Source: Mycoplasma tullyi
GTDB taxonomy: Bacteria; Bacillota_I; Bacilli_A; Mycoplasmatales; Mycoplasmoidaceae
Length of the DNA stretch: 64,000 nucleotides
Assembly: GCF_014068355.1 (NCBI RefSeq)
Contig: NZ_CP059674.1
Location: 558,001 to 622,000, forward strand
Direction: 5' to 3'
The translations under genes were made by a program, and so were the position numbers. Shown here piece by piece: positions 4,784-7,203 of this stretch. Below the pieces are notes generated by a model, which saw nothing but the letters and a program-made list of their open reading frames with translations, did no database searches and was not told the DNA's origin. The first letter of the stretch is position 1. Each line of letters opens with the position of its first letter.

Positions 4784-6031
4784 ATGAACAAGATTCAGCA
4801 ATTGATTAATGAACTTTGTCCAGGTGGGGTTGAATATAAAAAACTTGAAGAAGTCGTTGTTTGAAACAAAAAGTTTAAAGATGCAAACAATATCTTTAAA
4901 CCTGTAAAAATTCCAGATATTTTAAATAAAAAAGCTAATGAAATAGCGGTTGATAACGGTGATATCAAAATATTAACAACGGGTTTAAAAGATCTATATA
5001 CCTTTAGAGAAGGTAATGATAATTATATTTATAATGCTGAAGTTATCACTATTCCTTCTGGAGGTTCAGCTAACATTAAATATCATGCGGGTGATTTTAT
5101 TAACTGCGGTAACATAATCGGAATTGCTAAAGATAAAAATGTTTTAAACACCAAATACTTGTATTATTTTCTAATCGAAAATAAAACTCTAATTGAATCG
5201 TTTTATAGGGGTGGTGGAATCAAACACCCTAGTATGCCTGATATTTTGAGAATTAGAATACCGTTACCACCACTTAAAATACAAAATGAAATTGTAAAAG
5301 TATTTGATATTTTTGTAGAACTAACAACTGAACTTACAACTGAACTTAACTTACGTTCATCCCAGTATGTGTATTATCGGGATAAGTTGCTTGACTTTGA
5401 TCAAAATCAGGAAATAAGAATAAAGAAATTAGGTGAAATGTGTTCTGTTAAGATGGGCAAGAGAGTGTTGAACAAAGATACTAACAACACTAAAGGAATA
5501 CCTTTTCACACCATTTCTACTTTGGGGCATAAAGCAACGAAATATATTTCTAAAGAACTCTTTAATCAACTAAAGAGAAATTATCCTTATCCTTCAAAAG
5601 AACAAATATTAATATCAACATCTGGAACCATAGGTAAAATTGTAGAATTCGACGGTAAAAATCAATATTTTCAAGATTCTAATATTGTCTGATTAGAAAA
5701 CGACGAAAAAAATGTTTTAAATAAATACTTATACTATTTTTTACAAACAAAACCTTGGAACTCAAATAAATCTAGCACTATAGAAAGACTTTACAATAAA
5801 GACTTAGAACAATTAACTATAAAAATGCCTTCATTAACCACACAGAATAAAATTGTTAACTTTTTAAATAACTTTGAGCTAATATGTCTGGATTTAAATA
5901 TCGGTTTACCTAAAGAAACAGAATTAAGAAATAAACAATACGAATACTATCGCGACCAAATATTTAACTACTTAAATACAGGCAGGGTTGATACAAACGA
6001 GAGAGAGAGAGAGAGAGAGAGAGAGAGTTAA
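4784..6031 (+). CDS. hsdS: Type I restriction specificity subunit HsdS, two target-recognition domains, ending in a GA tract
   Basis: DNA-recognition subunit of the type I system, 415 aa with UGA as Trp. TRD1 is about residues 1-175. A central spacer carries two TTEL repeats (about 180-187), followed by a conserved arm (YRDKLLDF). TRD2 is about 215-365 (KLGEMCSVKMGKR), followed by a second conserved arm with LRNKQYEYYRDQIFNYL. The last codons are (Glu-Arg)n encoded by a 29-nt GA tract, and the TAA stop follows at once. The reading frame of the next hsdS cassette also passes through this tract, so tract length decides whether translation stops here or continues into a third TRD. It is divergent from hsdRM. 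Which sequence it recognises cannot be read from the protein. Confidence 0.93.
5321..5344 (+). repeat. 12-bp tandem repeat encoding TTEL-TTEL in the HsdS central spacer
   Basis: CTAACAACTGAA and CTTACAACTGAA stand in tandem, encoding LTTE twice. In the EcoR124 family the number of equivalent TAEL repeats in this spacer sets the distance between the two half-sites. The same position here suggests the copy number could tune the recognition spacing. Confidence 0.7.
5894..6027 (+). repeat. Direct repeat, copy 1: HsdS conserved arm plus GA tract
   Basis: The segment encoding LNIGLPKETELRNKQYEYY through the GA tract is repeated with strong similarity at 6510-6634 (LNIGLPKETGLRNKQYEYY). The two copies provide homology for recombination between hsdS cassettes as well as the slippage sites. 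Confidence 0.75.
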
Positions 6032-6650
6032 TCTCCTAATCGTTCTTCAATATGTATTTGGTTCAATTTTAATTGATTTCAATTCTATTGCTAATATTTC
6101 TACTGGTTCGTCAAACGCTTCAGACGCCGTTGATAATGGTCAATATCCACTATTCATTAGATCAAAAGAAATAAAAAGAATCGATCAATATGAGTACGAT
6201 GAGGAAGCTATCATAATCCCTGGAGAAGGAGGTGTAGGCGATATTATTCACTATATCAACGGTAAATATGCGTTGCATCAAAGGGTATATCGAATCAACT
6301 TCATTAATAAAAACTTAATAAATACAAGATATGCAAAATATTATTTAGAGTGTTATTTCAAAAAATACATTCTTAAAAAAGCGGTTTCTGCCACTGTTAC
6401 TTCAATTAGAAAACCGATGATAGAAGAGTTTGAAATTAATTTACCTATACTATCTATTCAAAACAAAATAGTAGACGTTTTAGACAACTTCGAACAATTA
6501 TGTTCAAACTTAAATATCGGATTACCCAAAGAAACTGGATTAAGAAATAAGCAATACGAGTATTATCGAGATCAAATCTTTAATTACCTAAATAAAGGTA
6601 AGCTCGATATAGACGAGAGAGAGAGAGAGAGAGAAACGAGATCTAATTAA
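5988..6650 (+). CDS. HsdS half-subunit cassette (third TRD), overlapping the hsdS 3' end in another frame
   Basis: Open frame of 220 codons if the TTG at 5988 is used. It has (Arg-Glu)n through GA tract 1, one target-recognition domain (about residues 20-165), then a conserved arm (LRNKQYEYYRDQIFNYL) almost identical to that of the preceding hsdS. It ends in a second (Glu-Arg)n tract followed by TAA. There is no convincing ribosome site of its own. It could be made as a fusion to hsdS after a GA-unit change, or by translational coupling. Half-HsdS proteins can be functional as dimers in known type I systems. Confidence 0.75.
   Translation: MIQTRERERERERVNLLIVLQYVFGSILIDFNSIANISTGSSNASDAVDNGQYPLFIRSKEIKRIDQYEYDEEAIIIPGEGGVGDIIHYINGKYALHQRVYRINFINKNLINTRYAKYYLECYFKKYILKKAVSATVTSIRKPMIEEFEINLPILSIQNKIVDVLDNFEQLCSNLNIGLPKETGLRNKQYEYYRDQIFNYLNKGKLDIDERERERETRSN
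5999..6027 (+). repeat. GA dinucleotide tract 1, (GA)14 plus G
   Basis: 29 nt of uninterrupted GA at the junction of hsdS and the next cassette. In the upstream frame it encodes alternating Glu-Arg and then reaches TAA (6029-6031). The downstream cassette is in the +1 frame, so gain of one GA unit (or loss of two) would fuse them. Pure dinucleotide tracts of this length are typical slipped-strand mispairing sites. Confidence 0.9.
6510..6634 (+). repeat. Direct repeat, copy 2: HsdS conserved arm plus GA tract
   Basis: Second copy of the repeat at 5894-6027, again ending in GA dinucleotides. Protein-level identity of the arm is very high (RNKQYEYYRDQIFNYLN in both). Confidence 0.75.
6615..6634 (+). 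repeat. GA dinucleotide tract 2, (GA)10
   Basis: 20 nt of pure GA at the junction of the second and third cassettes. As at tract 1, the downstream cassette is in the +1 frame and is open back through the tract, so one added GA unit (or two lost) would fuse them. Confidence 0.9.
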
Positions 6651-6651
6651 A

Positions 6652-7203
6652 TTACTGCTCTTTATCTTTGATCAAGTAAATGTAAAACTATCTGATATTG
6701 CAACCATCAAAACTGGTTCAAGGATCACTAAAAAACAACTATTAAAACAAGGTTATCCAGTAATCAGTGGGGGGATGAATATCTTTGGTTATTATGATCA
6801 ATTCAATACCAAAGCAAATACGATCACTATTGCAAAATATGGAACAGCTGGATATATCGATTTTCAAACTCAAGAATTTTGAGCTAATGATGTAACTTAT
6901 CTGATTGAACCTTTAGAATTTATTGATAATAAATTCTTATACTATACATTACTAAACAATCAAAAATTGATTGATTCTTATGTAATAAAAGCAACTCCTA
7001 ATCATTTACCAATTGATAAATTAAAAGAATTACCGATTACGATTACTTCATTTAAGAATCAAGAAGTAATTAGTAAATGAATTGATAGTTTTAATAACTT
7101 AATAATTGATATGGATAATAGTATTCCTAAATTAATAGAACTATCAACTAAACAATACATTTACTATCGTAATTACTTATTTGGGTTGTTAGAAAATAAG
7201 TAG
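6652..7203 (+). CDS. HsdS half-subunit cassette (fourth TRD) without its own start codon
   Basis: The frame is open from GA tract 2 to TAG at 7201-7203. After the tract it reads VNVKLSDIATIKTGSR and SGGMNIFGYYDQF, with TIAKYGTAGYI, a typical HsdS target-recognition domain. It closes with KQYIYYRNYLFGLLENK. No ATG, GTG or TTG with a ribosome site precedes the conserved start of the domain; the first in-frame ATG (6778) is already inside it. Expression should therefore require fusion to the preceding cassette by a change in GA tract 2. It is the last specificity unit of the array. Confidence 0.7.

Follow-up and report, generated by a model that had tools for sequence, protein, structure and literature searches.

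A Mycoplasma tullyi hsdS gene followed by two target-recognition cassettes, each behind a GA tract that may gate its addition

An hsdS gene and two downstream cassettes

The window that we analyzed is a stretch of 64,000 nucleotides from the genome of Mycoplasma tullyi (NZ_CP059674.1, positions 558,001 to 622,000). Close to its start are the genes of a Type I restriction-modification (RM) system: hsdM and hsdR, both on the minus strand, and hsdS, on the plus strand. When positions 4784-7203 are read with genetic code 4, they contain an hsdS gene with two target-recognition domains (TRDs), a (GA)14.5 tract, a cassette with a third TRD, a (GA)10 tract, and a cassette with a fourth TRD. The features are, in window coordinates:

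1..1371, minus strand: hsdM, which extends outside the window to genome position 557,761 (TIGR00497 hsdM, 613.9 bits)
1375..4596, minus strand: hsdR, divergent from hsdS (HSDR_N, SWI2_SNF2, and EcoR124_C domains; PADLOC REase_I, 890 bits)
4784..6031, plus strand: hsdS, a complete two-TRD specificity subunit (code-4 ORF of 415 amino acids; two PF01420 (Methylase_S) stretches)
4904..5350, plus strand: TRD1 (PF01420 match)
5318..5348, plus strand: 12-bp repeat encoding (TTEL)n in the central arm of hsdS (found with TRF), as in EcoR124-type HsdS
5411..5917, plus strand: TRD2 (PF01420 match)
5850..5998, plus strand: conserved arm LNIGLPKE..LRNKQYEYYRDQIFNYL, 5' of tract 1 (from sequence comparison)
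5976..6650, plus strand: cassette 2, an ORF with the tract, the helix NLLIVLQYVFG, TRD3, and an arm (one PF01420 match, 66.4 bits)
5999..6027, plus strand: GA tract 1, the gate between TRD2 and TRD3; (GA)14+G, 29 nt, pure, now out of frame
6029..6031, plus strand: stop codon (TAA) of the current hsdS frame (from frame analysis)
6037..6039, plus strand: stop codon (TAA) of the third frame, which together with 6029-6031 shuts both non-joining frames
6087..6530, plus strand: TRD3 (PF01420 match)
6613..7203, plus strand: cassette 3, an ORF with the helix RDLIKLLLFIF, TRD4, and a terminal arm (one PF01420 match, 78 bits)
6615..6634, plus strand: GA tract 2, the gate between TRD3 and TRD4; (GA)10, 20 nt, pure, now out of frame
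6679..7140, plus strand: TRD4 (PF01420 match)

The hsdS protein matches the Type I specificity model of PADLOC with 274.7 bits across residues 1-396, and its best relative in the PDB is the HsdS of EcoR124II (E = 1e-27). Methylase_S domains and conserved arms are present in hsdS and in both cassettes (PF01420; PADLOC Specificity_I), which, along with the nearby hsdM and hsdR, places all of these sequences in the Type I HsdS family. The second arm of hsdS is LNIGLPKETELRNKQYEYYRDQIFNYL, which leads into the (GA)14+G tract, and the arm before tract 1 recurs at a spacing of 616 nt (214 nt, 75% identical). TRD2 and TRD3 are 45% identical over 135 amino acids, largely in the arm; they are not identical, and all of the TRDs in the window differ from one another. 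A first-pass annotation of this DNA had proposed a two-TRD hsdS with two single-TRD cassettes behind pure GA tracts, and the ORFs, the Methylase_S domains, and the tracts themselves are as it described.

Tract length and reading frame

As the first-pass annotation had noticed, the +1 frame runs through either tract into the following cassette without a stop, so adding one GA unit or removing two would join it. At tract 1, a stop codon comes 0 codons on in the present frame and 3 codons on in the third frame, and the +1 frame stays open for 206 codons, across cassette 2; at tract 2, the corresponding numbers are 4, 3, and 188. Because the non-joining frames stop within five codons, any tract length should give an HsdS that either ends cleanly in its shorter form or carries on into the next cassette. 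By this frame analysis, the tract length determines the short or the fused HsdS at both tracts, as in phase-variable hsdS genes with simple sequence repeats. At the present tract lengths, only TRD1 and TRD2 are in frame, the protein ends in (ER)nES just past tract 1, and there is no single ORF with three TRDs. The frames predict products with 2, 3, or 4 TRDs. For tract lengths that are random modulo 3, these would arise with proportions of 2/3, 2/9, and 1/9, which is arithmetic and not an observation.

We inspected both cassettes for start codons, and no common start lies between either tract and the TRD that follows it. In cassette 2, the only common start is a TTG at 5988, which is 5' of the tract; cassette 3 has no start codon 5' of its TRD, in agreement with what was first noticed. 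We rejected internal starts for the cassettes for this reason, and another early suggestion, that half-subunits might be made by coupling, finds no support.

The location of the GA tracts is not due to chance. In the genome of 867,815 bp, tracts of at least nine GA units occur only at the two junctions in the window, and all five of the tracts with at least six units are at junctions of hsdS cassettes, in three hsdS clusters.

Two more GA-joined clusters in the same genome

The three hsdS clusters contain 14 Methylase_S matches. Cluster A is in the window; the other two, which lie outside of it and go beyond the first-pass annotation, are:

Genome 550,766-552,600, minus strand: cluster B, after hsdM; a 2+1 chain (two TRDs upstream of the tract and one downstream) with (GA)6, out of frame
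Genome 394,857-399,600: cluster C, with no neighboring hsdM or hsdR

Thus, 2+1+1 chains are found in two of the three clusters (A and C). The chain that opens cluster C has two (GA)7 tracts, of which only the second is in frame, and its TRD4 has a separate frameshift at 397,161-397,185. After the chain there is a second hsdS, which terminates in a degraded junction, and past it a broken TRD4-like copy. TRD1 of this orphan cluster is 82% identical to TRD1 of cluster A and 81% identical to TRD1 of cluster B, and sequence comparison shows conserved arms that are common to the cassettes.

We also note that cluster C (L017) adjoins a run of related lipoprotein genes and has a TRD4 segment that is duplicated and decayed (83% identity across 766 nt). 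The lipoproteins of this genome resemble the VlhA family.

Similar junctions in other genomes

We scanned 84,980 genomes, one per species, for a GA tract 3' of the HsdS arm motif. This matched 98 stretches, and 41 contigs remained after we required the HsdS arm signature; the scan asked for (GA)6 and for spacings within set limits, so these numbers are undercounts and are biased towards this motif. The 41 contigs, some of which may be mis-binned, are from Firmicutes, Actinobacteria, Saccharibacteria, Fimbriimonadaceae, mycoplasmas, an archaeon, and others. The tract is followed by a long downstream cassette in 37 of the 41 contigs: it is in frame in 16 of these and out of frame in 21 (15 and 6 in the other two frames).

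Some of these GA-joined relatives are 1+1 genes, with one TRD on each side of the tract (such as L019, L040, and L062). According to Pfam, five are 2+1 genes whose third TRD is out of frame (L039, L058, L071, L107, and L113). Three contigs encode natural in-frame proteins with three TRDs (L028, L034, and L092), and Pfam confirms the three domains for L092. A comparable junction in Mycoplasmopsis iners (L098) is in frame. Several of the GA-joined hsdS genes are flanked by ORFs that resemble HsdM and HsdR, and several of the 2+1 genes are in hsdM-hsdS-hsdR operons. In the segment after the tract, LLQYVFG from Clostridia aligns with LLIVLQYVFG from the window, so the modules in the window are part of a wider subfamily. 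One of the GA-joined hsdS ORFs (L024, 333-1943) begins with an apparent nucleotidyltransferase-like domain, as judged by eye from GSRAKGNWRNNSDIDIAVFGG.

Closer to M. tullyi, a pattern search found GA-gated hsdS in this genome alone among 11 from the genus. In the class as a whole, the pattern occurred in 3 of 395 genomes, and one of the three is not obviously hsdS. The pattern search of IMG/VR gave 6 matches, and the sole match in a search of plasmid DNA was to the TRD2 stretch, at 70%. Another genome from the genus (G009) shows the same idea with a different dinucleotide: it has three consecutive hsdS genes (L156, 585387-589182), each with an (AC)13-17 tract around its midpoint; one of the genes reads through (393 amino acids) and two are split. 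In G009, hsdM-like ORFs also contain poly-G tracts with lengths of 12 and 10 (L155, at 234544 and 236881) and are possibly phase-variable.

Early stops, purifying selection, and exchange of modules

One alternative is that the cassettes are decayed remnants of hsdS genes, untranslated and with GA tracts that expanded neutrally. Across the junctions, the non-joining frames have a stop within 8 codons in 72 of 84 cases, compared with 43% for control positions taken within those cassettes. When related junctions were collapsed to 26 clusters, 43 of 52 frames had early stops, versus a mean of 22.6 in simulations, and none of 20,000 simulations reached 43. In the 45-codon arm of A3, B3, and C3, which are now out of frame, dN/dS is 0.04-0.06, with synonymous differences near saturation. 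This speaks against long-term silence of the off cassettes, although part of the signal could come from gene conversion by expressed copies. Together, the enrichment of early stops and the purifying selection on out-of-frame cassettes imply that these are not decayed remnants. Both results, and the existence of joined and unjoined relatives, agree with the 2-, 3-, and 4-TRD forms that had been proposed from the frames. True decay does occur in this genome, in the frameshifted TRD4 and the broken TRD4-like copy of cluster C, but the cassettes in the window are full-length with intact domains, and the long downstream cassette has been kept in most of the 41 contigs, often out of frame. The first-pass annotation had named decay among the findings that would overturn its proposal, and we consider it extremely improbable.

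Tract lengths are unequal among homologous junctions, and in one pair of contigs more than the tract has changed. The hsdS genes of L058 and L107 agree at 99% of positions over 1,149 nt and diverge at the arm; past the arm, the tract (11 versus 18 units), the linker, and the third TRD are all different. Since the whole junction segment differs, this shows exchange of a module rather than pure slippage. One of the two contigs is binned as Campylobacter and the other hsdS is from Peptoniphilus faecalis, so the near-identity reflects either transfer or mis-binning.

Structure models

AlphaFold models of the joined three-TRD form from the window (pTM 0.45) and of the natural in-frame protein L092 (pTM 0.40) both have low confidence. 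In both models, TRD3 is preceded by a helix that resembles the N-terminal one ahead of TRD1; this agrees, weakly, with each cassette being a half-HsdS that lacks a start.

Comparison with known systems

Simple sequence repeats are found in 7.9% of the hsdS genes in REBASE (Atack et al. 2020 FASEB J, as cited in PMC7394358). In NgoAV from Neisseria gonorrhoeae, tract-gated joining of the hsdS1 and hsdS2 halves alters the methylation specificity (PMC9577141). As in the window, a simple repeat lies between hsdS segments and a change of frame separates a short from a fused HsdS; NgoAV is the best support for gating by the GA tracts. However, the repeat in NgoAV is poly-G and the arrangement is 1+1, whereas in the window GA tracts in series would add a third and a fourth TRD to a complete two-TRD HsdS.

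The S subunit JHP1422 from H. pylori J99 has three TRDs and methylates two recognition sequences (PMC3936762). Like the joined form predicted for the window, it has three consecutive TRDs in one protein, and it is the best reason to think that a joined form might recognize additional targets. It differs in that it has no repeat gate, its TRD2 and TRD3 are identical copies, and it varies by recombination, whereas the TRDs in the window all differ. Also in H. pylori, a second homopolymer tract in the Type IIG enzyme JHP1272 alters specificity once the frame is corrected (PMC3936762), but this is a single-chain enzyme from another protein family and the tract is not a dinucleotide repeat.

The closest parallel for live variation of tracts in a mycoplasma hsdS is Candidatus Mycoplasma girerdii, in which each of two HsdS loci has two dinucleotide tracts that vary in length within a natural population (PMC5476646). 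The likeness is in the number and type of tracts, and that paper left the consequences open.

In hsdS loci of the SpnIII type from S. pneumoniae, segments invert via inverted repeats. These loci are like the window in having several TRDs and a reversible change of Type I specificity, but we found no inverted repeats between the hsdS copies (only short AT-rich inverted pairs), so we rejected site-specific inversion.

Thus, the parts of the arrangement were already published, in NgoAV, JHP1422, and Ca. M. girerdii, and the serial arrangement of GA-gated add-on TRDs appears to be new. The first-pass annotation, which called this not a standard design, was right in what it observed and largely right about the mechanism, but it overstated the uniqueness, as GA-joined cassettes recur elsewhere.

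Proposed mechanism and alternatives

We propose that the cassettes are add-on TRD modules that are gated by slippage and are also swapped by recombination, and we give this reading a probability of roughly two in three. With the sequenced tracts, translation ends just past tract 1 and gives an ordinary two-TRD HsdS. Strand slippage at tract 1, by +1 or -2 GA units, would join TRD3 via a (Glu-Arg)n spacer, and if slippage also occurred at tract 2, then TRD4 would be joined. The longer HsdS may add targets by pairing alternative TRDs, by analogy with JHP1422. Over longer times, modules are probably also exchanged at the conserved arms, both within the genome and between species, as the sequence comparisons suggest. 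As a result, the specificity of methylation and restriction would change stochastically. We infer that the locus could act as an epigenetic switch; no effect of methylation on gene expression could be detected in M. gallisepticum S6 (PMC9681074), so a regulatory effect of hsdS switching cannot be assumed.

Alternatively, the tracts might turn the enzyme on and off instead of altering its specificity, if a third TRD breaks the circular fold of HsdS so that joined forms are inactive and the short form is active. In favor of this, the known HsdS structures have two TRDs, the short form is a complete HsdS with a clean end at the tract, and AlphaFold did not give a confident arrangement of three TRDs. 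However, a tail that only turns the protein off would need neither intact Methylase_S domains nor purifying selection on its arm; the three-TRD subunit of H. pylori is active (PMC3936762); and in the 1+1 relatives, joining makes a two-TRD HsdS rather than breaking one. We think that on/off gating is unlikely. It is quite unlikely that the extra cassettes are just a silent archive, a stock of TRDs that recombine with expressed hsdS genes, the GA tracts being mere seams or by-products: the exact frame relations and the stops in both non-joining frames would be superfluous, and joined three-TRD proteins exist in frame. An archive would nevertheless account for the arms that the cassettes share, for the similarity of TRD1 across the clusters, and for the exchange of a whole module between L058 and L107 with its breakpoint in the arm, and such domain movement (DOMO) is known from H. 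pylori and M. agalactiae (PMC3077401).

Long dinucleotide tracts are error-prone in both sequencing and assembly, so the tract lengths in the window could be misassembled, or a mixed population could have been collapsed, and one or both junctions might truly be in frame. This is very doubtful, as the genome's other three junctions have shorter tracts and are gated too, and it would leave the architecture unaffected.

Slippage-gated modules that are also exchanged by recombination remain our preferred explanation. As unrelated bacteria have the same design, it seems to be a reusable means of adding or dropping DNA targets. It is tempting, although we put it at a little under even odds, to see a modular class that spans phyla: GA gates would add a third TRD (and here also a fourth) to a complete HsdS, one hsdM-hsdR pair would switch at random between a single recognition sequence and several, and modules would be traded between species at the arm next to the gate.

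If the joined forms are active, then one locus could add recognition targets, which goes beyond switching between two, and the counting and annotation of phase-variable methylomes and of phage defence would change. GA-gated hsdS genes resemble frameshifted pseudogenes and can fall at the ends of contigs, and past reports of disrupted hsdS genes in mycoplasmas may merit re-reading. Multi-target methylation by an HsdS with three different TRDs is now directly testable, as natural in-frame examples exist.

Genomic surroundings

Clusters A and B are in one block of the genome (about 549,448-567,410), with two hsdM-hsdR pairs, a Schlafen/AlbA_2 protein, and a HaeIII-type pair. The gene for the Schlafen/AlbA_2-domain protein (genome 549448-550680; L015) adjoins cluster B. 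The HaeIII-type pair is directly 3' of hsdS, at 7386-9407 in the window, and consists of a C5 cytosine methyltransferase and then a HaeIII-type restriction endonuclease; a DNA search found no full-length copy of the pair in the other 10 members of the genus. The two nearest relatives among the genomes compared have 87% and 84% DNA identity to M. tullyi over whiA-trxB, which, with the VlhA-like lipoproteins, suggests an avian mycoplasma from the M. gallisepticum group. At the matching place in both of them, between a lipoprotein gene and the gene at 9859-10491, there are no RM genes, so the RM block was probably gained in M. tullyi, or else lost in both relatives.
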